Source: a virus. Taken from it: 23,510 bases of DNA. Position numbers and translations under genes: made by a program. The notes under the pieces are model-generated. The model did no database searches, had not been told where the DNA came from, and saw only the letters and a program-made list of their open reading frames with translations. This document shows, in pieces, positions 3 to 19,457 of the stretch. The stretch's first letter is position 1; every line of letters begins with the position of its first letter. Location: positions 1-23,510 of the IMG/VR virus record IMGVR_UViG_3300031857_001431. The stretch is one strand, 5' to 3'.

Positions 3-3000
3 ACCGACGACTGGGAATTTGTTGATTTTACCGCTGTATCATCATCCGCATTAAATTATACAAAGGGTATAACAAATTCAGGAATTGAAAACGGAACCAT
101 CACTTTTGAAGTTCCGTTAAATGCTCCAGATGTATTATACTATCAAAGTTTTACAGATCCTAATAGATTTGGTAGAATTATTATTACTAATATAGAAGAA
201 AACACTAAAATTGATGTAGAAAATGAAATTTTAGGTAAAGCAACCTATACCAGTAGCAACAACGTAGCTTTTAGTAATGGCATGATTGTTTATTTTATTG
301 GAAAAGTTTTTCCAGAAAAATATAGTAGTAATACGTCTAACAACAAATGGGTAGTTGAGGGTGTAGGAGAAAAAATATCTTTAACTAATGTTGCCGACCT
401 AATTGTGTCTACTACCTTCTCAGACACTGCCCCTGAGATATTATTTGATAATGGCGGTTTTGATACACAGCCATTTGACGATGCTAGCGCATATCCTGGA
501 AAGAAAGATTACATTACTATTAATCGTTCTAGCCTAGATTCAAACCCTTGGAGCCGATACAATCGTTGGTATCATCGAGCAGTTTTAGATTATGCCCATA
601 CTCTAAATAATTCTAATTTTGATGCTCCGGAAACAACTCGAGCAAAACGTCCAATTATTGAATTCAAACCTAATTTGCAGTTGTTTAATCATGGCTCAAT
701 TGCCAAAGCTGCTGTTGACTATGTTGATGATTTTACAACTGATGTATTTTCAGTTATTGAAGGCAGTACAGGTTATATTGTTGACGGTGAATATCTATTC
801 AATGGTGCAAGACTGTTAATAACCAACGATACCGACACGCTAGCTAACAATCAAATTTACATTGTAAATTTTATTACTCACAATAATGTTAAACAAATTA
901 GCCTAACTCGCGAATCTAATGTTGATACTCAGGCCGGAGACGGAGTATTAATACGTCGAGGTATAAAGAATAAAGGAGTAATGTATCATTTTAACGGAAT
1001 TGATTGGGTTCAGAGTCAATTAAAAACTGCAACAAATCAAGAACCGCTATTTGATATGTTTGATGATAACGAAGTTAGTTTTGGAGATGCTGAAACGTAT
1101 CCGGTTAGCTCGTTCGTAGGAACTCCTATTCTAAGTTATAAAATTGGTTCAGGACCAACGGATATTGAATTAGGATTTAGCATTAGCTATCTCAATATAG
1201 ATAATGTGGGTGATATACAATTTAATTTTAATATTGATGCAGATTCATTTAACTATAAACTTGACAACATTAATTACTCTAAAGAAATTTCAACAGGATA
1301 TTTGAAATTTAATAATGATGAAAGTTTTATTAATGCATGGAACACACTAGATTCTAATTATGTCCAACCAATAATTGACAGCGTAGATATTACAGAATCT
1401 ACAAACGAAATTACCACAACTATGGTTGATTGGAATTTGTTGGACGATAAGGACATCCGTAAAATACTAGTTTATCTTAACGGAGTACATGTTCGATCGG
1501 GTTTTACTAGAACCGCAGGTACATTTGTATTTGACAAACAATTTACAGTAGGTGATACGGTAGCAATTAAACTGTTTGCTGACATTGATCCCAACACAGG
1601 CTATTACGAAATTCCTTTGGGATTAGAAAAAAATCCCCTAAACGAAAAAATAAAAACATTTACTTTAGGACAGGCATCTGATCATTTAGCCACAGGATTA
1701 GAACTATTAGAAGACTTTACCGGAATATTTCCAGGATTGAATAATCTAAGAGATATTAGCGGTTATCAAACGTTAACAAGAAGATTTTTAAAACACTCAA
1801 GTCCATCTCCATTATCTATTGCACTATTATGTAATAAAGAAAATAATATTATAAAATCTATTCAGTATGCAAAAAAATCATACACTGATTTTAAAAATAA
1901 TTTTATTACTCTAGCATATGAAATATATTACGATCAAACTGCAAATGATTTTGTAGACTCTATTCTAGAAGAGATTAGTAGAACTCAAGATATCAACAGA
2001 CCCTTTGCTGGATCTGACATGATAGGTAGTGGTGCCCATACTACTATAAATTATACTGTTGAAGATACAGGAATTAAAACATTTGCTCTTTCAGAAAAAT
2101 TTGATCTAAAAAGCCTAAGCTCACGGGCAGTTTACGTTTACTTTAATAATCAGCAATTATTAGTAAATCGAGATTATGAATTTAATTCTACATTTGGATT
2201 TGTTAATTTAATGATTAATTTAACAGAAGGAGACGTAATTCAAATTAGAGAATATACTTCAACGGCTATTAATTTTATACCACCGACTCCAACTAAGTTG
2301 GGATTATATAAAAAATATACTCCCAGAAAATTTGTTGACGATACGTATGTGGACCCAAAAGAAGTAATTCAAGGACACGACGGAAGCATAACAATTGCCT
2401 ACGGCGATTTTAGAGATGACGTTTTATTAGAATTAGAAACTCGAATTTACAACAATATCAAACAAGAATATAACGAGTCTATAATCAACATCGATAATAT
2501 TCTAGGCGGATATTATGGAAATGCACTCTATGGAAAACCAGCATTAGATAAAATTATTTCTTCAGAATTTTTAAATTGGATTTCTGGAACAAATATTGAT
2601 TATGTAAACAATTTATATTTCGACAGTGAAAATAGTTTTACATATACCTATAGTAATATGGTAGATCCAACAGGCACTCAAAACTTGCCAGGATACTGGA
2701 AAGGTGTTTATAGTTGGTTTTACGATACATACAGGCCACACACAAATCCTTGGGAAATGTTAGGCTTTAGTGAAAAACCATTATGGTGGGAAACTGAATA
2801 CGGTCCTGCCCCGTATACAAGCAATAACCTAATTCTTTGGGAAGATCTTAGAGACGGTATTATTCGTCAAGGAGAAAGAGCAGGTACTAGAGATAGATAC
2901 AAGCGTCCATCGATCATGAGTCACATTCCTGTAGATGGCGATGGCAAATTGTTAAGTCCGTTAGATTCGGGATTGGCCGGTAATTTTTCTTTGATCAATA

Positions 3001-6000
3001 ATCAAGGAGCATTCAAAATAGGGGACGATGCGCCAGTTGAAGCAGCCTGGAGAACAAGTTCAGAGTGGCCGTTTGCAATAATTTCTGCTCTTGCCCTATT
3101 AAAACCTTTTGAATTTATTACTGATAATTTTAATAAATCATTTATATCAACTAACAAGCTAGGTCAGACAATAAATTTAAAAACTAATTTATTTTCTACT
3201 TTTAATGATTTTGTCTATGAGAATACAACAGACACTCCGGTTTCAGGATTAGTAGTTTATATTACAAACTATTTAAAAAGTACCGCTGCGTCAACAGCTA
3301 CCTTAGAAGATATTGTTGGAAACATAAATGTAAAATTATCTAACAGAATTTCTGGTTTTGTTGATCAGCAACAACAAAAATATATTTTAGATAGTAAAAA
3401 TCCTAGATCTACATCTAATAGTGTTTTTATTCCGCCAGAAAATTATGACATTATTTTTAACGTTAGTTCGCCAATTTTCAATTTATCCTATAGCGGAGTT
3501 ATTTTAGAAAAAGTTAATACCGGATGGAAAATTTCAGGATACGACAATTCGACTCCGTTGTTTTACTATTACCAGCCAACTGATTCTCAATCTGATCCTT
3601 TAATTTCGGTTGGCGGTCTAAGTGAAAATTTCTTAGATTGGACTGAAAACACATTCTACGGCAACGGTGTAATTTGCAGATTTAAAGATAAATTCTATAG
3701 ATGTCTTAGTAGCCATACGAGCTCAACTGAATTTTTAGAAAGCACAAACGGTTTAAATATTTGGAAACAACTACCGTCGTTGCCGTTAAATGGTGCAGTA
3801 GAAGCATTTAGAAGAAGAAATTTTAATAAATTAAAACTTAAAACTCTGTCATATGGTACTATATTAACCAGTATACAACAGGTAGTTGATTTCTTGTTAG
3901 GCTATCAAGAATATCTTAAATCTGTTGGATTTATATTTGACGGATATGATAGAAATTCTTCAACATCATTTGATTGGTATACTTCTGCTAAAGAATTTAT
4001 GTTCTGGTCTAAGCACAATTGGGCTGAAAATTCTTTACTTACACTTAGCCCTTCAGCAACTTACATAAAAATTAAATTTAATATCGGTGTAGTTGATAAC
4101 ATTTTAGACAGTTTCTATGATTACCAAGTTTTGAAAAATGACGGAAATCCTCTACAGCCTAGATTTATTAATGTTAATAGAGACTTTCAAGAAATCGTAG
4201 TATCTACTACAAATACTACAGACGGAATATATTTTTTAAGAATGCACTTCGTACTTAAAGAGCATGTAGTAGTATTTGATGATCGAACAGTGTTTAACGA
4301 CATACTCTATGACAAGCCAACTGGTTATCGTCAGGAACGAATTAAGAGTCGTGGATTCCGCACAGTTGACTGGGACGGTGATTACACCAGTCCTGGATTC
4401 TTGTTTGACAATGTTAATATTGATGTTTGGCAACCATTTACAGATTATAAATTAGGCGATATTGTTGCATATAAATCTTATAATTGGACCAGCAAAAAAA
4501 CTCAGTTGGGTTCTGCAGAATTTCAAGATGCGTTTTGGTCAAAATTAGATTCTACTCCTAGTAAATCGTTGGTGCCTAACTTTGATTATAAAATAAATCA
4601 GTTTAGCGACTATTACGAAGTGAACACCGACGGCGTTGGGTCTAGTCAACGAGATCTTGCAAGGCACGCAATTGGTTATCAGCAACGAGAATATTTGCAA
4701 AATATTGCAGAAGATGAAATTAGTCAGTTTAGAATATATCAAGGATTTATTAGAGAAAAAGGAACTGCAAATGCTATCGTTAAGGTATTTGACAAACTTA
4801 GCAGAACACAAGACGACAGCGTTGTATTAAAAGAAGAATGGGCATTTAAAATTGGAGAATTTGGAGGAACAAATCAGATAGATGATTTTGAATTTGAAAT
4901 TAAAAAAGATAATCTTGTAATAAATCCTCAACCGATACTATTAACTTACAGCACAAATTCATCTGTTGTTCTAGATCAATATTTAAGAATTAATTCTTCA
5001 AATTTTACAATCGCACCTACCCCGTTTACTACAGATTTAAATCGCACATCGTACTATGACGGAGTCACTAGATCTGCAGGATACGTGAATACAAATCATG
5101 TTGATTTTGTTGTAAGAACAATAGACGATATTGTAAATTTAAACATTGCAGATGTTTATGAAAATGCTCATATATGGATAACGTTTTATAATAATTCTTG
5201 GACAGTATTTCGATATAATCAAGAAGTTGCACTACGAGTAGAGTCTTTAATAAAGATAGATTCTAATGTAGAATTAACACTAAGTCGACTACACAATTTT
5301 AAAGTCGGCGATATTGTTGGTTTAAAATACATTGCTAATCTTACAGGCTTTTTTAAAATTACTGCAATTACAAATAAAACAATTACAGTAATTACTACTA
5401 GCACCAACGAACCTGAGATTGAAGATAGTACATCGGCAACTATTGGAATTTTTACAGTTGCAAGAAAAACAAATTATCAAGAGTTAGATCCGCAACAGGC
5501 CTCATTGTTATCTCTTTCAGCAAGGATTTGGGTAGATGCAAATGAATCCGATAAATGGGAAGTTATTGAAAAAACCAAACAGTATACTACCTACGAATTA
5601 AGTGAATACGGAATCACAACCCCTGTGGGCACTGGCACATCGGTAGTCTATATTGATAACCTAAAACAAATTGCCACAGGCATTCCGGGATCGGGTTATG
5701 TAATGATTTATACAACCAAGGCTTCTGGTGAAGTTATTGGCCTAAAACAAATTGTGCCACCGCCCGATGGATTTGAAACTGCGGTTGGAACATCGTTTGG
5801 AAAAGTATTAGCAGTTAGTCCGGATTACAAGTGGTTAGCTGTAGGATCTCCAAATGCCAGCGGAGTAAAGAGTGCATATCAAGGCGAATTGTATCAATAT
5901 AGAAGTTATCTTGCAGGCGAGATTGTGCTATATCAAGGAAAACTTTGGGAAGCCATTGATAACATTGATCTAGGTGACGGTAGTTCTATTAACTTTAACA

Positions 6001-9000
6001 GCGACGATTGGAAGCCAGCAACTATAGTTAACGCTAATCCTGCTGCCCGAGGCGACGGATTCACCGACCAGGGAATGATATCCTTGTACAAATACAGTCA
6101 AGGACAGTGGGAAATTGCCTACAGTTTTGTTAGTCCAAGACAAGCGGCCTACGAAGAATTTGGTTCAGCAATTACTATTGGTGTTTCTGGAACAACATAT
6201 TATATGGCAGTATCTGCTCTAGGGTCATTATGTGATCCTGCAGTAGGACCAAATACTGGTAAAGGAAGAATTTACCTTTATCAATACAACGGCACAGAGT
6301 GGAGACATTTAGAAAATACAAAGTACCTAGGAGTGTATCAACCATCACCCTTGGCATTTTATCCTGCTGGATCAATAGTATGGTCTAATGATAGTTTATG
6401 GGAAGCATTATACGACAACACCGGCGACGGCAGTTCGTTATCCTTAGAGTCAAGTGATTGGAAAAAATTAGATCCTATTTCTACGCAATGTTCGTTGCCA
6501 ACAAATATTGCAATGGATGATGACGGTTCTACCCTAGCAGAAGGATTACTAAGTTCAACGCAGTTAGCCGAATTAGTTAAAGAAGGCGATCAGTTTGGTT
6601 TTTCTCTTACTATGAGTAGAGACGGACGTTTATTAGTTGTTGGCGCACCAAATAGTGACGGTCAATATTTTGCCAATTACCGAGGCGACTGGAATGTTTA
6701 TCAAGAATATAAAGAAGGTGATGTTGTAAAATATCAAAACGGCTATCATAGATTAACCGACGCAACAACATCATCTATTACAAGTCTTGGACAATTTCCA
6801 GATGATGGATTACCTTGGTTAAATGTAGGAGATAGTGCATCTCCTTCTACGGGTAAAATTTACATCTACGAAAGAAATTCAAATGATTTGTACAGTCTAA
6901 CACAGACAATTACCGCTGATTCTTTAAGCGATATAAACGATACTACGAATTCTGGGATTATTGGATCGGGGGACCAATTTGGATTTGCCATCGATATTGA
7001 TGCATCGGGCACAACTATTGTAACAAGTAGTCCCTTAGCAGACATTAACAAACAGAATCAAGGAGCAGCATATGTTTTCAAACGGGATGCTACTCAATTT
7101 AGGCTAAAACAAAAATTACAAAGCTACGAATATTTTACAAACGAGTATTTTGGTTCTAGTGTTTCTATCAGTGCTGCAACTGAACGAATTGTAATTGGAG
7201 CAAAAAATGCCGGATATGCTGTTGATGCATATTTTACCGATGGTACAACATTTGATAGAAGAAGAACCTCGTTCTCTTCTTCTAGAGGATTTCCTGGACA
7301 AGTCTATGTGTATGAGAGAAAAGATCAGGGATATTTCTTAGTTGAAAAATTAGAGGCTGAGTTAGTTTCTGGAGAGTCGTTTGGCTATTCTATCGATTGT
7401 ACCAGTTCTGTAATTGTTGTAGGATCTCCTACCTATCAAGTAGAAGGTGTAGCAGTTGGTATGGTTAGACTGTTTAAAAAATCACCCGAAACAAATAGTT
7501 TCAATGTAATTTCTCAAGAAACACCTTTAGTAGATGTTGACTTGTTGCAAAATATTGAATTATATGATAATGTCAATAATAAAAAAATCACAGACCTTGA
7601 TGTTGTTGACGGTTTTAAACTTAAAATATTAGGAGTTGCTGAACAAGAAATTTCCTATAAAACAATTTACGATCCTGCAATATACATGTTGGGTACTGAC
7701 GACCAAGTAGTTGATGAATCACAACCGTGGTTTGAAAAAAATGTTGGAAAAATTTGGTGGGATTTAAGTACAGTTAAATTTATAAATTATGAGCAGGATG
7801 ATTTTTCCTATAGAATAGGAAACTGGAATTCTCAAGTAGAAGGCTCTTCAATTGATATCTACGAATGGGTAGAATCTGTACTATTGCCATCGGAGTGGAG
7901 TTTGCTTGCCGATACTGTAGAAGGATTAGTTGAAGGTATTTCCGGCCAACCAAAATTTGCTGACGATACAGTTTACAATACTAAGATTTTGTACAATCCA
8001 AACACAGGATTAACTACTGGAACATTGTATTACTATTGGGTTTCTTCAAAGACACTGCTCCCTGCTAATAATCCAAATAGACGAATTTCAGCATCAGCAA
8101 TTGAAGATTTTATTAATAACCCAATTGGGTCTGGAATTCCGTTTGTAGGGATATTAGGAACAGACAAATTTTTAGCCTATAATTTCCCAGCAGTTATTGG
8201 AACAGATACAGCACTGATAAATGTTGAATATACTAAAAATAAAAAACAATTAACACCAATTCATAGAGAGTATCAATTATTAACTAGCGGAGTTGCCGAC
8301 AGTCTGCCTTCTGAATACTTAGAAAAGAAATGGATTGACAGTTTAGTAGGATCAGACGAAGCTGGAAATGCAGTTCCTGATCCTAAATTGCCAGTTAAGA
8401 AACAACAAGGACTAAGTTTTAGGCCTCGACAAAGCATGTTTGTTAATAGAGATAAGGCATTAAAGATTGCAATTGACAATATTAATTCTGTACTAATAAC
8501 TAGACCTTTTGCTGACACGATTGATTTTAGTAATCTTAACAAATTTGATCCTATTCCTAGTGAAGTATTAAATCAATATGATTTAGCAGTGGATACCTAT
8601 ATTGATTTGGAACAAGTAGGAACAGTAAAAATTCGTCAGGCAGAATTTACCGCAAATATTATTAATGGTGAAATTGATACCATTGATATTTCAGATGCAG
8701 GGTTTGGATACCGAACAGCTCCTTATATTGAAATTCAAGGCGACGGAATTGGAGCAAAAGCATTCATTACTTTAAACGCACAAGGTAAAGTAAATTCTAT
8801 TACATTAACGTCTAAAGGAAAAAAATATACAACAGCTATCGTAAAAATTAGACCGTTCTCTGTGTTGGTGCGAAACGATTCTACATTAAACGGATTTTGG
8901 AGTATATATGCTTGGGATCAACAACGTAAGATTTTTTATCGTAGTAAATCTCAAGGATACGATACTACCATTTATTGGGAATTTATCGATTGGTGGAAAT

Positions 9001-12000
9001 TAGGATATTCTATAAATTCTAGAATTATTAAAGAAATTACTAATATATACCAAGAACCAACTCTAGATCTTTCTGTGGGTGATCTAATCAGAGTTAAAGA
9101 ATATGGCAATGGCGGATGGGTAATATTAGAAAAGACAATAGAAGGTGACGGAAATCTGCTTGGAAATTATAATTTAGTTGGTCGTCAAAATGGCACAATA
9201 CGGATTACCGATACTCTTTATAATCGGTTGATTAACAGCCTTGGTTATGACAATGTCGGTTCTTATGATGCAGCATTGTATGATTTACAACCAACTAAAG
9301 AATTACGAATTATTTTACAAGCAGCAAAAGAAAATATATTTGTTGATGACCTAAGAGTTGAATGGAACAATTTATTCTTCTCTTCGGTAAAATATGCGTT
9401 CTCTGAACAGACTTATATTGATTGGGCATTCAAGACAAGTTTCTTAAATGCAATTCATAATGTGGGCGATCTCGAACAGAAGACCAACTATAAAAACGAT
9501 AATTTAGAAAGTTTTCAACAATACATAGAAGAAGTAAAACCCTATAGAACCAGCATTAGAGAATACACTAGTCGATATACTAAAACTGAGTCTTCTAATT
9601 CAGCGGTATCTGATTTTGATCTACCACCTGCATATTCTGTTAGAGACGGTAAAATATTACCAGTAAATCAATATTATAATAGATTCAGTGAATATCCATG
9701 GAAGTCGTGGTTTGACAACAATGGATATTCTATAGTAGCAATTGAAGTTGCTAACGCAGGCGCTGACTATCGCACTCCGCCAACAGTATTAATTACAGGT
9801 AATGGTACTGGTGCTACGGCCCAAGCATTTATATCTAATGGTCGAGTGTCTGGAATTAGAGTTATTACTAATGGTAGTGGTTATACACAAACTCCAACAG
9901 TATCATTAGTAGGCGGCAACGGAACATCAATTAATATTGCTAGAGCTGTAGCAGTTCTTGGCGACACACCTGTTAGATCCTTTGATCTAACAATGAAGTT
10001 TGATAGAACAAATAAAATTGGTACTTATAATGATTTTGAATATTCACAAACTTTTATTGCTACGGGATATAGTTCAATATTTGATCTAAATTATGCTCCA
10101 ACTAGAGATAAAGGAAAAATTACAGTAGTTAAAAACAATCAGTTAGTAATTACCAATGAATATGAAATTAGTCTATATACTTCAACAATAGATACGTATG
10201 AATTATTAAAGGGTAAATTGAAATTTTTTACAAATCCAAATGCAGGGGACGTAATTGTAATTAACTATGAAAAAAATACTGAATTGTTTAATAGCATAGA
10301 TAGAATACGTAAATTTTATCAACCAACAGCCGGCATGAAAGGTAATGATCTTGGTCAATTAATGACCGGAGTTGACTTTGGCGGTGTACAGGTGCAAGGT
10401 ACAACTTTTGATGTTACTGGCGGGTGGGATGCTCTGCCATGGTTCACAGACAGTTGGGATAGTGTAGAATCTAGTAATGATTTTTATTATGTAGCAGATG
10501 GTAGCACAACATTTGTTGTCTTACCTTATACACCAGAAAACAACCAACCTATTTCGATCTATATTAAACGAGTTGGAGATCAACGTCCGATTAGAATTGA
10601 TGATCCTAATTATACTCCTAGCTGGGATTCTAGTGTAGCAACTAATCCCAACGCCGAAATGCCAACATTCGTTGGAGATGGATCTACAAATATAATTGAA
10701 GTCCATCGATATTTAAGTACCAATTCTGGAGATACACTAATCTTTAGAAAATTAGAAAGTGACGGTTCTGTTGTTATTAGTGATGTAAATTTATTAGATA
10801 CAAGAATTAGCGGCGGATCGTTATCGAACATTAATGGCGCATATGTAACTGCCGCTGGATTAACTCCAGAAGAAATAGTTATAGACGGAGAAAAATTTAT
10901 CAGTCCAGATCAAGTGCCGGCACCCGAAGAGAATATTCCAGGCCAAGTACTTGATAGTTTAAGTATCAAGGTATTTAATAAAACCAATCCGGGTGCAGCC
11001 CCAATACAAAATAATGTTATTATTGGAGATGGTGTCAGAACTAGATTTACAATAGGATTATCCATCTTTGAAGCAACGTCGGTAATGGTATATGTTAATA
11101 AAGTTAAACAAGAATATATTGGTGATAGTACTATAAATTACACCATAGATTTTGTTGAAAATGAAATTGAATTTAATCTAGCACCAGCGTTGGGAGATGT
11201 TATTGAAATTATTGCTGTGGGTATAGGCGGTATAGGATTACTAGATTATCAAGAATTTGTAGCAGACGGTGAAACTAACTTATTTTTAACCAAAGCTGCA
11301 TACGATCAAACATCAATAGTTTTAGTGACTGTAGACGGAGTAGCTATAGACGTTGGTTTTGTCAACAGTTCAGATTTTATTGATACTAAAAATAAAACAA
11401 TGATACAGTTCGGATTAACTCCTGCATTTAGACAAGTTGTAAAAATTATCTGTTTTGGTGCAGTCGAAGGTGCAGATTCGTTTAACTCTTCCTTTATTCG
11501 AATTAATCAACAAACAGTTCCGTATGATGGAAGTACTAGGACCATAGCATTAGATAATTTTGTTAATTTAGAACAATCGTCGGCAGCTGCCTCAATTATA
11601 GTCAACGTTAATGGTACATATCTTCAAGGAGTTGATACTACCTATATTGAATATGACGGTACTAATAACAATATATCAGTGGGTGTTGATCCTGCAGAAA
11701 CAATTGGAACTATTACTTCTGGAAATGTCAAAGTATACATTAATAATGTTCAACAACAATTTGTTATTGACTTTACCTATAACGGAAACAACAATTTAAT
11801 TAATATCCCTTCTTCAAATTTAGAATTAGGCGATATAATCAGAGTTGAAACTAACGTTAGATCAAAATATTCAATTGTTGATGGAAATATTATATTAGAT
11901 AATAGTGTTGATCTAGAGGTTAACGATGATATTCAAATAACATGGTTTAGCCAATATTCTACAATGAATATTATTTCAGACGAATACCAAGGCGGTAAAT

Positions 12001-12962
12001 TGCAATACAAACTGCCAAGGGATCCTCTAGATGTTAATTATGTTTGGGTATATAAGAATGGAATTCGTTTAACTAAAGATGCAGATTATAGACTATCGCG
12101 GTCTTCTATTGTTTATCTAACTGAAGAGTCGTTATCTACAGACACTATTAAAATTGTACAATTTAGTAACGTAATTTATTCAAGTAATAGGGCATTTGAA
12201 ATATTTAAGGATATGTTAAACAACTATCATTATAAGAGATATTCTAGAGATGTTGAAGTTAAATTAGTTAAAGATCTAAATTATTTTGATACATCTATAG
12301 AAGTTTCAAACGCTGATAAATTATCAACTCCAATCTTTAGTAGACGAATTCCTGGAGTTGTTATTATTAATAATGAAAGAATTGAATATTTTGAAAAGAA
12401 TGGAAATATTCTATCTCAATTAAGACGTGGAAGTTTAGGTACAGGAATTGCCGAATTACATCTAACAGGTAGTTTTGTAGTCGATGTTGGTGCAACCGAA
12501 ACTCTTCCTTATACCGAAAATCAAGAGAAAGCCAACTTTATCAGCGACGGTAGCACAATATTGATTGGACCACTAGATTATACTCCTCGCCAATCTACAA
12601 GAAATAATTGGTACAGAGAATCGATACCATCTAATTTTGGTCCTTGCGACGAAATAGAAGTATTTGCGGGCGGTAAGCGCCTACGTAAAAATCCTATAGA
12701 TGCCTATCAAGAAGATAACGGCGCTAGCAGCCCTGGTGCTGATATTATGCAAGAAGCTGAATTTTCAGTTAACGGAACAACTGCATATATTCGATTAACT
12801 GACTCAGTACCTGCAGGAACTCGAATAACAATCATTAGAAAATTAGGAAAAATTTGGTATGAGAAAAGTGAATTTGCAGCCAGTAAAGGCATTACGTTGT
12901 TGTCTAACAACACACCTATTGCTAGTTTCATTGCTGTAAAGACCACTGAGCTGCCCGAATAA
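3..12962 (+). CDS. Giant virion structural protein, 5'-truncated (at least 4,319 aa)
   Basis: The frame is open from the window edge (codons start at base 3) to the TAA at 12960-12962. The first internal ATG, at 282, has no Shine-Dalgarno sequence and coding continues upstream of it, so the true start lies outside the window. Residue number from the edge is base/3. Modules in order: a region typical of giant structural proteins of marine T4-like phages (bases about 700-1300); an aromatic, Pro-rich block (about 2690-3000; NPWEMLGF, KPLWWETEYGPAPYT); CBM5/12-like modules (about 3640-3785 and 4425-4545); a conserved YQGFIREKGT block (about 4738); an FG-GAP-type propeller with CBM-like inserts (5796-7488); two Gly/Tyr-rich repeats (about 8640-8860 and 9735-9960); an EEVKPYRTSIREY block (about 9520); DGST-type repeats (about 10050-12600); and a PGVVIINNERIEYF block (about 12350). 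It is inferred to be a tail or baseplate-periphery component that contacts host glycans. Family placement is from recalled sequence patterns; the exact location in the virion is unknown. Confidence 0.9.
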   Translation, partial: TDDWEFVDFTAVSSSALNYTKGITNSGIENGTITFEVPLNAPDVLYYQSFTDPNRFGRIIITNIEENTKIDVENEILGKATYTSSNNVAFSNGMIVYFIGKVFPEKYSSNTSNNKWVVEGVGEKISLTNVADLIVSTTFSDTAPEILFDNGGFDTQPFDDASAYPGKKDYITINRSSLDSNPWSRYNRWYHRAVLDYAHTLNNSNFDAPETTRAKRPIIEFKPNLQLFNHGSIAKAAVDYVDDFTTDVFSVIEGSTGYIVDGEYLFNGARLLITNDTDTLANNQIYIVNFITHNNVKQISLTRESNVDTQAGDGVLIRRGIKNKGVMYHFNGIDWVQSQLKTATNQEPLFDMFDDNEVSFGDAETYPVSSFVGTPILSYKIGSGPTDIELGFSISYLNIDNVGDIQFNFNIDADSFNYKLDNINYSKEISTGYLKFNNDESFINAWNTLDSNYVQPIIDSVDITESTNEITTTMVDWNLLDDKDIRKILVYLNGVHVRSGFTRTAGTFVFDKQFTVGDTVAIKLFADIDPNTGYYEIPLGLEKNPLNEKIKTFTLGQASDHLATGLELLEDFTGIFPGLNNLRDISGYQTLTRRFLKHSSPSPLSIALLCNKENNIIKSIQYAKKSYTDFKNNFITLAYEIYYDQTANDFVDSILEEISRTQDINRPFAGSDMIGSGAHTTINYTVEDTGIKTFALSEKFDLKSLSSRAVYVYFNNQQLLVNRDYEFNSTFGFVNLMINLTEGDVIQIREYTSTAINFIPPTPTKLGLYKKYTPRKFVDDTYVDPKEVIQGHDGSITIAYGDFRDDVLLELETRIYNNIKQEYNESIINIDNILGGYYGNALYGKPALDKIISSEFLNWISGTNIDYVNNLYFDSENSFTYTYSNMVDPTGTQNLPGYWKGVYSWFYDTYRPHTNPWEMLGFSEKPLWWETEYGPAPYTSNNLILWEDLRDGIIRQGERAGTRDRYKRPSIMSHIPVDGDGKLLSPLDSGLAGNFSLINNQGAFKIGDDAPVEAAWRTSSEWPFAIISALALLKPFEFITDNFNKSFISTNKLGQTINLKTNLFSTFNDFVYENTTDTPVSGLVVYITNYLKSTAASTATLEDIVGNINVKLSNRISGFVDQQQQKYILDSKNPRSTSNSVFIPPENYDIIFNVSSPIFNLSYSGVILEKVNTGWKISGYDNSTPLFYYYQPTDSQSDPLISVGGLSENFLDWTENTFYGNGVICRFKDKFYRCLSSHTSSTEFLESTNGLNIWKQLPSLPLNGAVEAFRRRNFNKLKLKTLSYGTILTSIQQVVDFLLGYQEYLKSVGFIFDGYDRNSSTSFDWYTSAKEFMFWSKHNWAENSLLTLSPSATYIKIKFNIGVVDNILDSFYDYQVLKNDGNPLQPRFINVNRDFQEIVVSTTNTTDGIYFLRMHFVLKEHVVVFDDRTVFNDILYDKPTGYRQERIKSRGFRTVDWDGDYTSPGFLFDNVNIDVWQPFTDYKLGDIVAYKSYNWTSKKTQLGSAEFQDAFWSKLDSTPSKSLVPNFDYKINQFSDYYEVNTDGVGSSQRDLARHAIGYQQREYLQNIAEDEISQFRIYQGFIREKGTANAIVKVFDKLSRTQDDSVVLKEEWAFKIGEFGGTNQIDDFEFEIKKDNLVINPQPILLTYSTNSSVVLDQYLRINSSNFTIAPTPFTTDLNRTSYYDGVTRSAGYVNTNHVDFVVRTIDDIVNLNIADVYENAHIWITFYNNSWTVFRYNQEVALRVESLIKIDSNVELTLSRLHNFKVGDIVGLKYIANLTGFFKITAITNKTITVITTSTNEPEIEDSTSATIGIFTVARKTNYQELDPQQASLLSLSARIWVDANESDKWEVIEKTKQYTTYELSEYGITTPVGTGTSVVYIDNLKQIATGIPGSGYVMIYTTKASGEVIGLKQIVPPPDGFETAVGTSFGKVLAVSPDYKWLAVGSPNASGVKSAYQGELYQYRSYLAGEIVLYQGKLWEAIDNIDLGDGSSINFNSDDWKPATIVNANPAARGDGFTDQGMISLYKYSQGQWEIAYSFVSPRQAAYEEFGSAITIGVSGTTYYMAVSALGSLCDPAVGPNTGKGRIYLYQYNGTEWRHLENTKYLGVYQPSPLAFYPAGSIVWSNDSLWEALYDNTGDGSSLSLESSDWKKLDPISTQCSLPTNIAMDDDGSTLAEGLLSSTQLAELVKEGDQFGFSLTMSRDGRLLVVGAPNSDGQYFANYRGDWNVYQEYKEGDVVKYQNGYHRLTDATTSSITSLGQFPDDGLPWLNVGDSASPSTGKIYIYERNSNDLYSLTQTITADSLSDINDTTNSGIIGSGDQFGFAIDIDASGTTIVTSSPLADINKQNQGAAYVFKRDATQFRLKQKLQSYEYFTNEYFGSSVSISAATERIVIGAKNAGYAVDAYFTDGTTFDRRRTSFSSSRGFPGQVYVYERKDQGYFLVEKLEAELVSGESFGYSIDCTSSVIVVGSPTYQVEGVAVGMVRLFKKSPETNSFNVISQETPLVDVDLLQNIELYDNVNNKKITDLDVVDGFKLKILGVAEQEISYKTIYDPAIYMLGTDDQVVDESQPWFEKNVGKIWWDLSTVKFINYEQDDFSYRIGNWNSQVEGSSIDIYEWVESVLLPSEWSLLADTVEGLVEGISGQPKFADDTVYNTKILYNPNTGLTTGTLYYYWVSSKTLLPANNPNRRISASAIEDFINNPIGSGIPFVGILGTDKFLAYNFPAVIGTDTALINVEYTKNKKQLTPIHREYQLLTSGVADSLPSEYLEKKWIDSLVGSDEAGNAVPDPKLPVKKQQGLSFRPRQSMFVNRDKALKIAIDNINSVLITRPFADTIDFSNLNKFDPIPSEVLNQYDLAVDTYIDLEQVGTVKIRQAEFTANIINGEIDTIDISDAGFGYRTAPYIEIQGDGIGAKAFITLNAQGKVNSITLTSKGKKYTTAIVKIRPFSVLVRNDSTLNGFWSIYAWDQQRKIFYRSKSQGYDTTIYWEFIDWWKLGYSINSRIIKEITNIYQEPTLDLSVGDLIRVKEYGNGGWVILEKTIEGDGNLLGNYNLVGRQNGTIRITDTLYNRLINSLGYDNVGSYDAALYDLQPTKELRIILQAAKENIFVDDLRVEWNNLFFSSVKYAFSEQTYIDWAFKTSFLNAIHNVGDLEQKTNYKNDNLESFQQYIEEVKPYRTSIREYTSRYTKTESSNSAVSDFDLPPAYSVRDGKILPVNQYYNRFSEYPWKSWFDNNGYSIVAIEVANAGADYRTPPTVLITGNGTGATAQAFISNGRVSGIRVITNGSGYTQTPTVSLVGGNGTSINIARAVAVLGDTPVRSFDLTMKFDRTNKIGTYNDFEYSQTFIATGYSSIFDLNYAPTRDKGKITVVKNNQLVITNEYEISLYTSTIDTYELLKGKLKFFTNPNAGDVIVINYEKNTELFNSIDRIRKFYQPTAGMKGNDLGQLMTGVDFGGVQVQGTTFDVTGGWDALPWFTDSWDSVESSNDFYYVADGSTTFVVLPYTPENNQPISIYIKRVGDQRPIRIDDPNYTPSWDSSVATNPNAEMPTFVGDGSTNIIEVHRYLSTNSGDTLIFRKLESDGSVVISDVNLLDTRISGGSLSNINGAYVTAAGLTPEEIVIDGEKFISPDQVPAPEENIPGQVLDSLSIKVFNKTNPGAAPIQNNVIIGDGVRTRFTIGLSIFEATSVMVYVNKVKQEYIGDSTINYTIDFVENEIEFNLAPALGDVIEIIAVGIGGIGLLDYQEFVADGETNLFLTKAAYDQTSIVLVTVDGVAIDVGFVNSSDFIDTKNKTMIQFGLTPAFRQVVKIICFGAVEGADSFNSSFIRINQQTVPYDGSTRTIALDNFVNLEQSSAAASIIVNVNGTYLQGVDTTYIEYDGTNNNISVGVDPAETIGTITSGNVKVYINNVQQQFVIDFTYNGNNNLINIPSSNLELGDIIRVETNVRSKYSIVDGNIILDNSVDLEVNDDIQITWFSQYSTMNIISDEYQGGKLQYKLPRDPLDVNYVWVYKNGIRLTKDADYRLSRSSIVYLTEESLSTDTIKIVQFSNVIYSSNRAFEIFKDMLNNYHYKRYSRDVEVKLVKDLNYFDTSIEVSNADKLSTPIFSRRIPGVVIINNERIEYFEKNGNILSQLRRGSLGTGIAELHLTGSFVVDVGATETLPYTENQEKANFISDGSTILIGPLDYTPRQSTRNNWYRESIPSNFGPCDEIEVFAGGKRLRKNPIDAYQEDNGASSPGADIMQEAEFSVNGTTAYIRLTDSVPAGTRITIIRKLGKIWYEKSEFAASKGITLLSNNTPIASFIAVKTTELPE
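5796..7488 (+). repeat. FG-GAP-type beta-propeller region inside the giant protein
   Basis: Six units begin with FG plus a hydrophobic strand, at bases 5796 (FGKVLAVSP), 6159 (FGSAITIG), 6594 (FGFSLTMS), 6978 (FGFAIDID), 7149 (FGSSVSIS) and 7380 (FGYSIDCT). Most then carry a VGAPN/VGSPN-like segment and close with a G-x-x-Y-x-Y strand (GRIYLYQY, GKIYIYER, GAAYVFKR, GQVYVYER). This is the pattern of FG-GAP repeats, which fold as integrin-alpha-like beta-propeller blades. The number of blades (six seen, possibly a degenerate seventh before 5796) is inferred. Confidence 0.75.
5877..6830 (+). repeat. Three CBM5/12-like modules within and between propeller blades
   Basis: Three segments, at about 5877-6030, 6327-6480 and 6684-6830, match the CBM5/12 (chitin-binding-like) pattern Y-x-x-G-x-x-V-x-Y-x-G-x-x-Y/W-x-A ... 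W. Examples are AGEIVLYQGKLWEAI with a later DDWKPA, and AGSIVWSNDSLWEAL with a later SDWKKL. The first two share a GDGSS ... S-x-DWK segment, suggesting recent duplication. Copy 1 sits within the first blade, copy 2 between the second and third blades, and copy 3 within the third. Related modules occur earlier at about 3640-3785 and 4425-4545. Ligand specificity cannot be told from the sequence. Confidence 0.6.
10491..12620 (+). repeat. C-terminal DGST-type repeats of the giant protein
   Basis: Repeated units of about 60-100 residues start with a (F/Y)-x-x-DG-(S/E/V)-T motif. A V-x-V-Y-V-N-G/K-V-like strand follows, then often a GD-x-I-x-I strand. Unit starts are recognisable at bases 10491 (YVADGSTT), 10668 (FVGDGSTN), about 11019 (IIGDGVRT), 11256 (FVADGETN), 11517 (VPYDGSTR) and 12537 (FISDGSTI). 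More divergent copies lie at about 2040-2260, 10050 and 11976. Such beta-rich repeats are common in phage fibre and tail proteins, where they probably form stacked small beta-domains. The structural reading is inference. Confidence 0.6.
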
Positions 12963-12965
12963 ATA
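12958..12965 (+). promoter_or_regulatory. Candidate T4-type late promoter core (AATAAATA)
   Basis: AATAAATA overlaps the stop codon of the giant gene and differs from the T4 late consensus TATAAATA by one base. If it is used, RNA would begin near 12971. That leaves almost no leader for the ATG at 12973 but a leader of about 26 bases for the in-frame ATG at 12997. In an AT-rich genome one-mismatch matches arise by chance, so confidence is low. Confidence 0.35.
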
Positions 12966-12996
12966 CACTATTATGAATAACCAAGAAGAAACTAAT

Positions 12997-13641: not shown

Positions 13642-13644
13642 CAG

Positions 13645-15717
13645 ATGCCATATATTGTTAATTTTACCGATAAAGATAATAAACTGCCCATAACGGTTTA
13701 TGATAATACTTCAAGTACTGATACCAGTTTAACATTTCCAGGACGAAATGTTACAGGATACGGACAAACGATCGCTGAAAATTTTTTAGCATTGTTAGAA
13801 AATTTTGCCAAAGAATCACAACCAGCAAATCCTGTAGAAGGACAGTTGTGGTATAATACTGCCGATGGGATACTTCAGATATGGGATAGCACTACATGGA
13901 AAGCTGCAAGTAATATTCAGAAAAGCGGAGTTGAGCCAGCTACTGAACAAAGTAAAGTTGGCGAGCTGTGGGTAGATACTACTAACCAACAGTTGTATGT
14001 ATATTCAGGAACACGTTGGATTTTAGTAGGACCTAATTTTTCTACAGGTCTTAGAAGCGGACCTATTGTTGAAGCAGTTATTGATTCTGACAACGTATCT
14101 AAAGTTATTTTAATATTTTACATTGAAGACATTCCGCTTATCATCTTTAGTAAAGACAGCTTTACACCTAAAATATCTATTTCCGGATTTGTCACAATCA
14201 AATCGGGTCTTAATATAACAGAAAATGATGTAGGGCTTGGCGGATTTCCTACAAAAATTTACGGAGCAGCAACGTCTGCAGAATCTTTAGTAGTTGCAGA
14301 CGTTGAAATTCCTGCAAATAAATTTTTAAGATCTGATATTATCAATACTACTGAATACGGAATCAATGTTAGAAATAATCAAGGCATCACATTAGGAGTT
14401 GACGGTACATTTAGTTTGACTACTTCTGAAATAGCTTCTAAAATTTATAATTCTTCTTCTGGTAGTAGTATCGATCTACAGATTAACAAAGATGGTATAC
14501 CGTCTACAGTGCTTCGTGTAATTGGAAACACAGTAGGTGTTAACATACTATCTCCAGAAGAAGCACTCCATGTTGACGGCAACATTAAAACAAACGGTGC
14601 AATAATTCTAACTGATACTACGCCGAGTAGTAATTTTAGTAATGGAACTTTTAGAACAGCAGGCGGCGCAGCAATTAGTAAAAATTTATTAGTAGGTGAC
14701 GGAGTCAAGGTAACTGGCACTAGTGAAGTTGACAATTTACAGCCTTCTACAACTGATTTTTATGACAGCGGAACACCGCTAAAACGTTGGAACACAGTTA
14801 GAACAAAAACACTAATAGCCGAAACAATTGAAGGTGTTCTTACAGGAAATATTGTAGGAAATGCATCTACTGCTACTAACTTGAAATTTGTTACAACTTT
14901 TAAAATGGAAGGAGATGTTACAGCTCCAAATTTACAGTTTGACGGACAAGTAGGCGGAAACACAAAAACTTTTACAACAACTCTTACTTCGGGATTAATT
15001 AGCAGTAAGGATGAGCCATTTCCAAACATATCTATAAAAGCAGACACTGTATTGGTATACAGACCAGGATCGGGTCTTATCAAAGAGACTAGAGATACGT
15101 TTGTTGCCGATCTAGGAGTTCCCATTGGGGGAATTATGCCGTATGCTGGTGCAGAAGCACCTTACGGATATTTGTTATGCGATGGTAGTGAAGTTGAAAG
15201 AACTAAATTCAGTGACTTATTTGATGTGTTAGGAACTACATATAACGGTGCTATTCCTTTAGTTGGAATTGGTACATTTAGAATACCTGACCTAAGAGGC
15301 AGATTTCCTCTAGGTAAAGACAACATGGATAATGCTGGAACTGTTCCTAATTCCTTAGGAGGATATGTTGACGCTGGAGGCGGAAACGTTGATAGGGTTT
15401 CTGGTACAGCACCTGACAACCTAGGCGACGGTGGCGGACAAAGTTCAAATATTTTAACAGTTTCAAATCTACCTGATCATGAACATAATATGAAAGGGTC
15501 TACGGGACAACAATATTACGCCACACGAATTGATACCGCAATTCCAAGCGATACAGGATCGTTATCAGATAAAGGTCCTACAACTGTTGGACAAAGTCAG
15601 TATATTCCAACATCAGGCGGCATTAAAACTGCTGGAACATTAGGTCAAGAATTTAGTGTTATGAATCCGTTTTTAACATTAAATTATATTATTCGATCTG
15701 GTCCACCAGCATTCTAA
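13645..15717 (+). CDS. Tail fibre-like protein with C-terminal tail-collar domain
   Basis: This 690-residue protein starts at ATG 13645, with AGAGG at 13632-13636 overlapping the end of the previous gene. Residues 1-190 are the N-terminal region shared with the next three genes (GRNVTGYGQTIAENF, LLENFAKESQP, GQLWYNT, WVDTTNQQLYVYSGTRW). The middle holds fibre-like modules: a LHVDGNIKTNG segment and a RWNTVRTKTLIAETIEGVLT segment followed by GNIVGNASTATNLK. Residues about 494-555 form a phage tail-collar domain (GGIMPYAGAEAPYGYLLCDG ... FRIPDLRGRFPLG). An LPDHEHN motif follows near residue 609, and the end is NPFLTLNYIIRSGPPAF, as in collar-domain fibre proteins related to T4 gp12. It is likely a trimeric short-tail-fibre or receptor-binding component at the baseplate. 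It is the only one of the four paralogues with a collar domain. Orthology to gp12 itself is not claimed. Confidence 0.87.
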   Translation: MPYIVNFTDKDNKLPITVYDNTSSTDTSLTFPGRNVTGYGQTIAENFLALLENFAKESQPANPVEGQLWYNTADGILQIWDSTTWKAASNIQKSGVEPATEQSKVGELWVDTTNQQLYVYSGTRWILVGPNFSTGLRSGPIVEAVIDSDNVSKVILIFYIEDIPLIIFSKDSFTPKISISGFVTIKSGLNITENDVGLGGFPTKIYGAATSAESLVVADVEIPANKFLRSDIINTTEYGINVRNNQGITLGVDGTFSLTTSEIASKIYNSSSGSSIDLQINKDGIPSTVLRVIGNTVGVNILSPEEALHVDGNIKTNGAIILTDTTPSSNFSNGTFRTAGGAAISKNLLVGDGVKVTGTSEVDNLQPSTTDFYDSGTPLKRWNTVRTKTLIAETIEGVLTGNIVGNASTATNLKFVTTFKMEGDVTAPNLQFDGQVGGNTKTFTTTLTSGLISSKDEPFPNISIKADTVLVYRPGSGLIKETRDTFVADLGVPIGGIMPYAGAEAPYGYLLCDGSEVERTKFSDLFDVLGTTYNGAIPLVGIGTFRIPDLRGRFPLGKDNMDNAGTVPNSLGGYVDAGGGNVDRVSGTAPDNLGDGGGQSSNILTVSNLPDHEHNMKGSTGQQYYATRIDTAIPSDTGSLSDKGPTTVGQSQYIPTSGGIKTAGTLGQEFSVMNPFLTLNYIIRSGPPAF

Positions 15718-15728
15718 GGTAAACACAA

Positions 15729-17567
15729 ATGGCATATACACTTAATAAAACTGATGGAACAATATTAGCTACCGTTGCAGACGGCCAAGTTGATGAGCTA
15801 TCAACAGATATTACACTTATTGGAAAAAATTATAGCGGCTTTGGCGAATCTATAAACGAAAATTTTATTAAAATTTTAGAAAATTTTTCTAGTACATCGC
15901 AACCATCTAGTCCTATTAGAGGACAAATTTGGTTTGATGCTAACGAATCAAAATTAAAAGTTTATAACGGAACAGGGTTTGTACCAGTAAGCTCTGCAAC
16001 AATATCCAGTCAACAACCTATTAATTTAGGTGTAGGCGACTTATGGTTTAATGATACTGATAAACAATTATATTTCTTTGATGGTACTAACACTATTTTG
16101 CTTGGCCCTGATTATTCTGTTAGTCAAGGGGTTAGCGGATTACGTGTGGCAAATATATTAGACTCGTTGAATCAAAGTCGAGTAATTACCTACTTGTATA
16201 CCAACGGAGTTCTAATAGGTATATTCTCAAAAGATGCATTTACTCCAAAACTTCCAATAGATGGATTTAGCGGTAGTATTATTCCTGGATTTAATGCAAG
16301 TACATTAGCTGGCCTAAAGTTTAATGTGACTGCAACTAACAGTGAAAAGTTAGGAGGACAACTTGCTAGCTTATATGTTCGAAATGACACGTCAAACATT
16401 ATTAACGGACAGATTATTGTTTCTTCAAATTTAGGTTTGATTATAGGTGATGCCAACCAAGGACAATTCCAAGTACAAGATGGTAATTTAATTATTGCTA
16501 ATATTGCATCTAACAAGCAGATGGTTTTTAACGTTCGTCGAGATGTTATTGCTGAAGAAGCAATTGCAATTAGTGCCGATACCAGAACAGTTAATATATA
16601 TGACGGATATCTTACAAGTGAAGTAGACATTGGTGGAAACTTAACGATTCAAGGCAATCTTACAGTGAACGGCGATGTTGTCACAGTTAACACTAGTGTA
16701 ATGACTGTTGAAGATAAAAATATTGTACTGGCAAAACAGACAGGAGTAACTCCCTTTGATGCTAATGCCGCCGGTGGTGGCCTAGTTTTACAAGGGGCAT
16801 CTAGCCATGTGTTTTTATGGCACGATGTTGGACAGACAGCACAGGCTTCTAGTTCAGAAGCTATTTCGGGTGGTTATAATGATGCTATTCCAGCACTGGC
16901 TAGTCAAGCGTGGACAAGCTCTGATCACATTAATTTAGCTTCAGGAAAAGAATTTAAGATTGACGGAGTAACAGTTTTGTCAGGAACTTCGTTAGGAGCT
17001 GGCATTACCAGTATTCCAGGCGTTACTAGTTTCGGTACACAAACTCAGCTAACAGTTGATAGTTTATATTTTAATGATGCTGCAATCGAAGTTACAGCAT
17101 CTAATACTGATCTAACACTAACAATTAACGGCACAGGCGGCCTAAATTTAGGAAGTAAGCGGATTAAAAGTGTTGCTGATCCTACTACAAGTACAGATGC
17201 AGCAACTAAAAATTACGTTGATAATACTGTTAGATCTAGAAATCTTGTGCTTAGTATGGATATATCAGACGGAATTTCTAATGCAGGTATTGCCGCATTA
17301 TTGGAGCAAATAGCACCAGTAGTCGAATATAACAACGGTACAATAGCTAGAGTTTTATGTTCGTTCTTGGTTAACGGTACCACTAACTTAGATATTAATC
17401 CGTTGCTGTCAACATCATCGACGGAATTTGTTACACCAACAGGAACAGCGTTTGGATTGAATAACATTAGTTTCACACCAGCAACCATTGCAGCACCTGG
17501 ATTAGCAGTGTCTAGAACAGTTAAAACTTTTCAGATTATAACGGGCGCATGGATATTTGTATCTTAA
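15729..17567 (+). CDS. Tail fibre-like protein, paralogue 2
   Basis: This 612-residue protein starts at ATG 15729, with AAGG (15716-15719) overlapping the upstream stop codon. The first 190 or so residues are homologous to the neighbouring fibres (GKNYSGFGESINENF, GQIWFDA, GDLWFNDTDKQLYFFDGTN, FSKDAFTPKLPIDGF). Residues about 303-440 form a module seen in marine T4-like phage fibres (NLTIQGNLTVNGDVV, TVEDKNIVLAKQTG, GGGLVLQGASSHVFLWHD, AWTSSDHINLASGKEFKIDG). Residues about 470-497 carry the common fibre motif SVADPTTSTDAATKNYVD, often found just before a tip domain. The last 110 or so residues (from NLVLSMDISDG to the end) form a distinct C-terminal domain that I cannot assign. It is probably a virion fibre; the receptor is unknown. 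Confidence 0.85.
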   Translation: MAYTLNKTDGTILATVADGQVDELSTDITLIGKNYSGFGESINENFIKILENFSSTSQPSSPIRGQIWFDANESKLKVYNGTGFVPVSSATISSQQPINLGVGDLWFNDTDKQLYFFDGTNTILLGPDYSVSQGVSGLRVANILDSLNQSRVITYLYTNGVLIGIFSKDAFTPKLPIDGFSGSIIPGFNASTLAGLKFNVTATNSEKLGGQLASLYVRNDTSNIINGQIIVSSNLGLIIGDANQGQFQVQDGNLIIANIASNKQMVFNVRRDVIAEEAIAISADTRTVNIYDGYLTSEVDIGGNLTIQGNLTVNGDVVTVNTSVMTVEDKNIVLAKQTGVTPFDANAAGGGLVLQGASSHVFLWHDVGQTAQASSSEAISGGYNDAIPALASQAWTSSDHINLASGKEFKIDGVTVLSGTSLGAGITSIPGVTSFGTQTQLTVDSLYFNDAAIEVTASNTDLTLTINGTGGLNLGSKRIKSVADPTTSTDAATKNYVDNTVRSRNLVLSMDISDGISNAGIAALLEQIAPVVEYNNGTIARVLCSFLVNGTTNLDINPLLSTSSTEFVTPTGTAFGLNNISFTPATIAAPGLAVSRTVKTFQIITGAWIFVS

Positions 17568-17593
17568 TAGTTAAATATGTAGGGGAGCGATAA

Positions 17594-19414
17594 ATGGCAT
17601 ACATCATAAACAAGTTTAGTGGCGGGCAATTAGTAGTGCTAGAAGACGGCACACTAGATACTTCAACCAGTCTAGGATTGCTTGGCAGAAACTATACTGG
17701 GTATGGTGAAGTACAAAATGAAAATTTTGTATTCTTACTAGAGAATTTTGCCAATGAAGATCCGCCTTCGCGGCCAATAACAGGTCAAGCATGGTATAAT
17801 ACATCGCTAGGATCACTTAATGTTTATAATGGTACAGCATGGACCCCAGTGGGCTCGGCAACAACCAGCAATACAGAACCCGAAGGATTTGACGGTGCTC
17901 TTTGGTATAAAGATACTACTGATCAATTGTTCATATTTGATTCGGGATTTTGGAAATTAATAGGACCAGAAGCAGTAGAAGGTTTTGGCGCTACTCGAAT
18001 TAGAGCTAGAACAATATTAGACAATGCCAACATAGAACATGCAGTAGTAGAAATTTTAGTAGACGGCACAACTTTTGTTATATGTGCCGACGAACCATTT
18101 ACCATTGACGACAGCAACTTAGTTACAGGATTTACTAGTCTACAAGCAGGTACAAATTTTTCATCTAATAGACCAGCAATTGGACCGTTAGTTGGTAATG
18201 CTTCTAGTGCATCTAGATTAGAACCAGGTAGACGAATTAACGGTGTCTTTTTTGATGGTCAAACAGATATTACAATTGGATCAAATACAACTAACACGTT
18301 AACAAGAGGCACATACTTAACAGGTGCAAATTTTAATGGATCGGCAGCAACAACGTGGTCGGTAGATGCTAGTTCTGCTAACGTTATTGGTAAAATTGTT
18401 GCTAGAGACAGCGCAGGAGATTTTTCTGCAGGAACTATTACAGCTGATTTAGTGGGGAATGTCAGCGGTAATGTGACAGCAACTACCGGAACTAGTAGAT
18501 TTATTAGGGTAGAAGCCAACGAGTTTGTTGGTGCTACATTATCAGGCAACGCATTTTCGACCACAAAACTAGAAACAGCAAGAACAATTAATGGCGTACT
18601 ATTTGATGGTACTGCAAATATCACAGTTCCTGCAAATGCAGAGACTCTTACAGGGGATAGGTTAGCTGTAGATATAAAGTATTCTAATCTAATTAGTGTA
18701 GGAACACTTCTTACTTTGCGAGTAAGCAATTATGCAACTTTTGGGCCTAGTCTTACTGAAAATGTAACAATTGGTTATTCGGATGCTACTAACCCTCTTC
18801 TAAGTAATGCAGGTTTTGTTAGCACAAATACTCCTTCACTCATATTATCTACAGGCGGTGCTGGTACCGGAGATGCGCTGACACTAGCCCTATGGAATAG
18901 TAATAAATCTTTGACTGAAGGAGGCGCTGCACAACCAGCACTAGTGCCATTAAATGCAACGCCTCAAAACATAGGACACTCAAATTTTAAATGGAATAGA
19001 GTCTATGCTAATTATTTTGAAGGTATTGCAACTACAGCACAATATGCTGACCTTGCAGAAAAGTATGTAGCAGATGCAAATTACGAAGCAGGAACAGTGC
19101 TAGAATTTGGTGGTGAATTTGAAGTAACACTAGCAGAAGACGGTACAGCTAGATTAGCTGGAGTAGTTTCCACTGATCCTGCATATTTAATGAATAGCAA
19201 GTGTGTAGGCAAACACACAGTTGCACTTGCATTACAAGGTCGTGTACCCTGTAAAGTAAGAGGTAAAATACAAAAGGGCGATATGTTGATGAGTGGCGGT
19301 GGCGGTTATGCCCGTAAAGCAACAAACCCGCAAATAGGTACGATTATAGGCAAGGCTCTAGCTGATTTTGATGGTGTAAGTGGAGTTATCGAAGTAGCAG
19401 TAGGCAGAGTTTAA
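17594..19414 (+). CDS. Tail fibre-like protein, paralogue 3, with QYADLAEKY C-terminal domain
   Basis: This 606-residue protein starts at ATG 17594 behind a strong ribosome binding site, AGGGGAG (17581-17587). The N-terminal 190 residues match the other fibres (LLGRNYTGYGEVQNENF, LLENFAN, GQAWYNT, ALWYKDTTDQLFIFD). The middle contains two fibre repeats of the ARTINGVLFDGTANITV type (about residues 212-225 and 330-342). Residues about 483-606 form a domain common in marine T4-like phage fibres: QYADLAEKYVAD, GTVLEFGGEFEVT, AGVVSTDPAYLMNS, ALQGRVPCKVRGKIQKGDML, then a GVIEVAVGRV end. The domain is shared only with the next gene here. It faintly resembles autoproteolytic fibre-tip domains, but I see no catalytic signature and do not claim cleavage. 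Confidence 0.85.
   Translation: MAYIINKFSGGQLVVLEDGTLDTSTSLGLLGRNYTGYGEVQNENFVFLLENFANEDPPSRPITGQAWYNTSLGSLNVYNGTAWTPVGSATTSNTEPEGFDGALWYKDTTDQLFIFDSGFWKLIGPEAVEGFGATRIRARTILDNANIEHAVVEILVDGTTFVICADEPFTIDDSNLVTGFTSLQAGTNFSSNRPAIGPLVGNASSASRLEPGRRINGVFFDGQTDITIGSNTTNTLTRGTYLTGANFNGSAATTWSVDASSANVIGKIVARDSAGDFSAGTITADLVGNVSGNVTATTGTSRFIRVEANEFVGATLSGNAFSTTKLETARTINGVLFDGTANITVPANAETLTGDRLAVDIKYSNLISVGTLLTLRVSNYATFGPSLTENVTIGYSDATNPLLSNAGFVSTNTPSLILSTGGAGTGDALTLALWNSNKSLTEGGAAQPALVPLNATPQNIGHSNFKWNRVYANYFEGIATTAQYADLAEKYVADANYEAGTVLEFGGEFEVTLAEDGTARLAGVVSTDPAYLMNSKCVGKHTVALALQGRVPCKVRGKIQKGDMLMSGGGGYARKATNPQIGTIIGKALADFDGVSGVIEVAVGRV
19035..19062 (+). repeat. 28-bp exact direct repeat, copy 1
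   Basis: These 28 bases are identical to 20848-20875. They encode the AQYADLAEK core at the start of the shared C-terminal domain of fibre paralogues 3 and 4. Flanking sequence diverges at once on both sides at the DNA level, although the protein similarity continues. Confidence 0.9.
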
Positions 19415-19427
19415 ATAGCTTTATAGC

Positions 19428-19435
19428 GATAAATA
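19428..19435 (+). promoter_or_regulatory. Candidate late promoter core (GATAAATA) before fibre paralogue 4
   Basis: GATAAATA lies in the 43-base gap before the gene at 19458 and matches the T4 late core at 7 of 8 positions. RNA would start near 19441, just upstream of the Shine-Dalgarno sequence GGAG (19447-19450) and 17 bases before the ATG. The spacing matches that of the perfect promoter at 22161, which supports it. No experimental evidence is available from the sequence. Confidence 0.5.
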
Positions 19436-19457
19436 ATAGTTAGAACGGAGTATATCA

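Follow-up and report, generated by a model that had tools for sequence, protein, structure and literature searches.

The DNA analysed here, referred to as the window, is an IMG/VR viral fragment of 23,510 bases; all coordinates are window positions, all features lie on the plus strand, and residues are counted in the frame that starts at base 3. Bases 3..12962 encode a giant baseplate-wedge protein, identified by its family match, by full-length copies elsewhere and by gene order. The reading frame is open at its 5' side, where the window edge cuts the gene, and the uncut gene in two relatives (L002 and L019) encodes about 4,574 aa. The sole match over a long stretch of the protein is phrog_10938 (E=6e-279), a family named 'virion structural protein'. 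In a 353-kb relative, the gene lies downstream of gp53-, hub-, gp25- and gp6-like genes, and a comparable order is found in the isolate jumbo phages Phosso, Cassandra, RaK2 and Vibrio 2.275. Assigned by this order, the gene occupies the position of the T4-type wedge protein gp7, after gp25 and gp6, in the jumbo-phage baseplate operon, and it is from gene order alone that a place for the protein on the virion can be proposed. The scaffold carries CBM5/12-like modules of its own at 3639..3770 (residues 1213-1256) and at 4425..4553. The latter, judged by length, is present in all propeller-bearing relatives, and isolate phages have a gap of about 50 aa at its place. Partial matches are also found for residues 2871-2953 (PHROG 438, baseplate wedge subunit) and for residues 3240-3305 (PHROG 460, head closure Hc2); the second stretch occurs repeatedly in the Phosso and Atu_ph07 homologues and thus probably represents a small repeat unit.

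Downstream of the wedge gene, four consecutive fibre-like genes (13645..21215) have in common an N-terminal domain of about 115 aa, the remainder of each being different. One of them harbors a tail collar domain (PF07484) and another a Peptidase_G2 self-cleaving domain (PF11962). Of 12 genomes checked, every one has the shared N-terminal domain. The 353-kb relative also encodes two very large fibre-like proteins (L325:4070-9607 and 9660-16001), each of which starts with about eight CBM5/12-like modules.

Within the wedge gene, bases 5577..7490 (residues 1859-2496) encode an inserted domain, a seven-bladed FG-GAP_2 propeller. FG-GAP_2 (PF14312) is matched on this segment with E=9.3e-21 (Pfam; 74.2 bits, curated cut-off 23), and FG-GAP_2 and CBM_5_12 are both matched in 20 of 20 aligned relatives. 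A custom blade HMM run against shuffled slots gives nothing (best E 0.45); this control and the 20 relatives together rule out chance matches as the source of the decorations. The AlphaFold2 model of the domain, built on a 20-sequence alignment, is a closed propeller with seven blades (pLDDT 81, pTM 0.84). Among solved structures, it comes closest to integrin alpha propellers (Z 29.3, rmsd 3.0, 358 residues, model residues 10-647), the best match being integrin alpha-L (PDB 5e6r). Only the fold comparison leads to a propeller in the PDB; phmmer and profile searches with the whole domain give none. Strict DxDxDG calcium loops are absent from the domain, where one loose match, DIDASG, occurs at residue 2331.

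The original prediction, made from the letters alone, had described six FG motifs and a propeller at 5796-7488. The six motifs are indeed in frame there (FGKVL, FGSAI, FGFSL, FGFAI, FGSSV and FGYSI) and the propeller holds as to fold and place, but its blades number seven, not six, and it begins at 5577: a degenerate blade and a closing strand lie upstream of 5796, so that the domain comprises 5577-7490. The N-terminal strand (5583..5600, model 12-17) would close blade 7, a pairing deduced from strand order in the model. Blade 1 (5628..5756), with four strands at model 31-69, is degenerate and lacks the FG motif (GTGTSVVYIDNLKQIATGIP..GYVMIY). The succeeding blades are blade 2 (5796..6128, FGKVL), blade 3 (6159..6308, FGSAI), blade 4 (6594..6911, FGFSL), blade 5 (6978..7121, FGFAI), blade 6 (7149..7355, FGSSV, with a long B-C loop) and blade 7 (7380..7481, FGYSI, with three strands of its own); blades 2, 4 and 5 are delimited by both Pfam and the model, the others by the model. 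A six-bladed reading is ruled out by the strand list and by two undecorated relatives (L283 and L303), whose seven FG blades support the count.

Regarding the decorations, the three inserts that had been proposed to be CBM5/12-like are present in frame, the first two having GDGSS and DWK in common. Insert 1 (5877..6029) lies in the B-C loop of blade 2, insert 2 (6321..6482) in the D-A connection of blades 3 and 4, and insert 3 (6675..6836) in the B-C loop of blade 4. Over the whole segment, CBM_5_12 (PF02839) scores 29.4 bits, above its curated cut-off of 26.2, the inserts taken singly falling below it: insert 1 is matched in Pfam with E=4e-4 and insert 3 with E=2e-3, and insert 2 alone has no Pfam match. 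Insert 2 is attached to the family by its profile match to insert 1 (99.1% probability, E=1e-18), the comparison of insert 1 with insert 3 giving 94.7% and that of insert 2 with insert 3 a weaker 73%. In profile searches of PDB sequences, inserts 1 and 3 match chitin-binding domains (for insert 1, 2rts with E=4e-4), and all three inserts match All3316/Cis13, a fibre protein attached to the baseplate, which is the best PDB profile match of insert 3 (E=9e-5). In two relatives (L229 and L230), only two CBM hits are found. Another relative (L009), whose sequence is identical elsewhere up to window position 6378, lacks 10 bases at that position, within insert 2, which breaks the frame; the deletion is either an assembly error or a real variant.

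Folded alone, insert 1 reaches a pLDDT of 84.7, and its model shows the three-stranded CBM5/12 fold with core aromatics, which are conserved. Compared with the CBMs of chitinases and deacetylases, the model gives an rmsd of about 2-2.6 A, Z of 4-6 and a Foldseek probability near 1, with E of at least 0.02; such modest E-values (best 0.02) are due to the small size of the domain. The matches listed for this model are nearly all CBM5/12 domains or phage baseplate/fibre modules. The best of them, with Z 7.2 and rmsd 1.7, is to residues 26-72 of chain Q1 in 8fqc, the baseplate-receptor complex of phage Milano; the chain is taken, partly from its length, as the N-terminus of the Milano tailspike. 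On its own, a Z below 8 could reflect an arrangement that many proteins have, but the sequence profile supports the same assignment. In CBM5/12 domains, the usual sugar-binding element is an exposed aromatic pair. In inserts 1 and 2, as far as sequence tells, no mostly aromatic column lies between the aromatic of LW and the last Trp, and LWEAIDNI of insert 1 takes the position of LYKAKYWT in the chitin-binding domain 2rts. Since the B-C and D-A connections of an antiparallel four-stranded blade are on one face, the three modules would, on geometric grounds, all share one face of the predicted propeller. CBM5/12-like inserts on a propeller platform are thus borne out by profile, by fold and by the varied decorations among relatives.

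The domain occupies a slot that can be recognized in more distant phages. Six isolate homologues align to both flanks; the stretch separating these flanks is about 120-1530 aa long and gives no propeller match (Pfam run on three slots). When joined, the flanks of the window (...WVDANESDKWEVIEK / NSFNVISQETPLVD...) align with those of Cassandra (...WIDSINSDNDWAVAVV..ITNIRSRQNLVD...), and the empty site in propeller-free relatives is nearly clean, between residues 1857 and 2498. Among homologues with both flanks, 99 of 145 carry the propeller, and a longer upstream region, which in the window includes the CBM-like module at 4425-4553, is present in exactly the same 99. In a midpoint-rooted tree (77 vs 38 distinct sequences), the bearers group as one clade with a support of 0.98. 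A single gain would explain this most simply, later loss elsewhere being possible. That the slots of the clade missed by the first propeller HMM are propeller-free is refuted by the presence of FG-GAP_2 in most of them (L293, L296 and L301); in L291, only a weak blade signal is seen. The propeller-free slots of Phosso, SCTP-2, Cassandra and L253 have no Pfam match. A tblastn search with the propeller returned nothing from 50,697 phage records, so that no isolate phage in this collection is known to carry it, and the FG-GAP_2 relatives found by searching bacteria are distant (20-38% identity), with no donor among them. The carriers are a clade of uncultured aquatic jumbo myoviruses, in which the decorated propeller arrangement is real and fixed.

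Slot length (residues ~1660-2510) varies among homologues from 212 to 1898 aa, and the decorations differ from member to member: bare seven-bladed propellers, propellers with three CBM modules, and propellers with a YHYH domain (PF14240, E=7e-39 in L301) are all found, more distant members having either no CBM hits or YHYH. Blade spacing is most variable where the decorations sit (82-344 aa between blades 3 and 4) and changes little between blades 5 and 6 (57-70). In 59 close sequences, the conservation of the inserts (0.58-0.60) is comparable to that of the loops (0.43-0.63). Within the whole protein, the propeller is no more variable than the rest and the inserts evolve no faster than the scaffold, the least conserved part being residues 1681-1860, directly upstream of the propeller.

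What such a domain does can be approached from its setting. In the reading preferred here, to which a probability of about 0.42 is given, the decorated propeller would be a baseplate-borne, host-directed binding platform. A complete seven-bladed FG-GAP_2 propeller is inserted as a single domain into the wedge protein at the gp7 position and, by analogy with the six wedge copies per T4 baseplate, each virion may display six decorated propellers. The fibres would bind first, after which the decorated face would engage the cell envelope at close range as a second contact. The modules would extend and shape this face, perhaps also contacting a conserved polymer in a mode unlike that of chitinase CBMs. 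The fold, the insertion, the clade and the positions of the modules in the chain are established by prediction and comparison; the virion location, the copy number and the adhesive role are inferred. An adhesive platform is suggested by the baseplate position, by the differing decorations, by the FG-GAP_2 propellers that related phages encode as separate genes near tail genes, and by the phi11 and phiKZ precedents. Indeed, phage propellers at baseplates have been linked to host recognition, in the receptor-binding protein of phi11 and, as a suspected case, in phiKZ gp131C (PMC4901313).

Other observations argue against adhesion, and several of them favor a docking or bracing platform, whose face and CBM-fold modules would bind virion proteins (the downstream fibres or neighbouring wedges) with no host ligand. 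In two solved contractile tails, this small fold lies in the baseplate-proximal portion of fibres, where the nearest contractile-tail homologues of the inserts are found (Cis13/All3316 residues 39-90 and Milano 8fqc), and two fibre-like proteins of relative G001 start with arrays of eight CBM-like modules. In its degree of conservation, the domain equals the scaffold, unlike typical receptor-binding tips, and the four fibre paralogues follow the wedge gene in 6 of 6 propeller-bearing records. Integrin-type propellers, moreover, bind proteins. However, the N-terminal domain of the fibres is also present in 6 of 6 propeller-free isolate phages, hence its docking does not need the propeller, and the strong variation in decoration length would be odd for a conserved interface. 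Docking is a tentative but serious contender, and the host-directed platform is ranked slightly above it.

The absence of the aromatic pair of chitin-binding relatives counts against adhesion in general and also against the original prediction that the modules are sugar-binding loops recognizing a host surface glycan. Their profile and fold match to the CBM5/12 domains of chitinases and chitin deacetylases, the avidity that three copies on one face may confer and the phi11 propeller precedent for GlcNAc would all suit that proposal. Yet LWEAIDNI stands where 2rts has LYKAKYWT, the domain shows no hypervariability, and the distal CBM of the neck fibre of cyanophage A-1(L) reportedly does not bind its host (PMC10966104), so that recognition of this kind appears doubtful. 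Still less credible is a mostly passive spacer, which a tolerant slot would have acquired a single time and which would persist as particle architecture with no ligand: the slot does accept 212-1898 aa of varied content and some relatives lack the propeller, but the domain is kept in 99 of 99 clade slots with its core residues conserved in the 59 close aligned sequences, which makes a mere spacer very unlikely. It is also conceivable, if somewhat unlikely, that the slot is a general cassette in which lineages keep different binding domains, with part of host recognition residing in the wedge and the propeller face exchanging modules (CBM-fold, YHYH and others).

The components are all known already; an FG-GAP_2 propeller with CBM5/12-fold modules inside a wedge protein was not found in the open-licence literature searched. 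Should the slot serve as an adhesin cassette, the host range of a very common group of aquatic jumbo phages would be set partly by a wedge domain and not by fibres alone, and nature would have in the decorated propeller a counterpart to the integrin head with its inserted binding domains. Should it instead be a platform for docking, a use would be explained for the CBM5/12-like modules of contractile tails, which are sometimes annotated as chitin binding.

With regard to known systems, the wedge scaffold that flanks the domain at either end is homologous to the PHROG 10938 wedge proteins of RaK2-, PA5oct- and Atu_ph07-like jumbo phages, whose slot, unlike that of the window protein, is without a propeller. 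The domain itself belongs with FG-GAP_2 (PF14312) repeat proteins, its relatives being bacterial by sequence and from phages or giant viruses by predicted structure. In Atu_ph07 and the Sinorhizobium phage Phosso, FG-GAP_2 propellers are encoded by separate genes, whereas that of the window lies inside the wedge protein and bears CBM-fold decorations. Atu_ph07 has one such gene, annotated 'hemagglutinin' and situated close to a gene annotated as tail fibre, and Phosso has two of about 394 aa in addition to two giants (XYS97266 and XYS97267, L159:4339-24979) with dozens of FG-GAP_2 repeats. Another seven-bladed propeller, that of gp131C (PDB 4GBF) of the jumbo myovirus phiKZ, has been reported from the periphery of the baseplate (PMC4901313). 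Unlike the window domain, gp131 is a separate protein; it shows a weak RCC1-like match (E=1e-3) and no FG-GAP_2. 4GBF is absent among the 50 structure matches listed, from which nothing follows as to kinship. The receptor-binding protein Gp45 of phi11 is likewise a baseplate propeller, proposed to bind GlcNAc of teichoic acid, but it has five blades and forms a trimeric protein of its own with a stem, in a Gram-positive siphophage. The inserts resemble the CBM5/12-fold modules of Anabaena Cis13, Milano 8fqc, the fibres of phage 7-7-1 and the A-1(L) fibre in their small beta fold and core aromatic pattern, and differ from CBM5/12 (PF02839) and contractile-tail modules in lying in propeller loops and in missing the usual aromatic pair. 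In comparison with the integrin alpha headpiece (PDB 5e6r), the window domain is viral, bears CBM5/12-like inserts instead of alpha-I and has no strict DxDxDG calcium loops. Both are nonetheless seven-bladed propellers of FG-GAP type, and in integrins, too, the propeller hosts an inserted binding domain (alpha-I).
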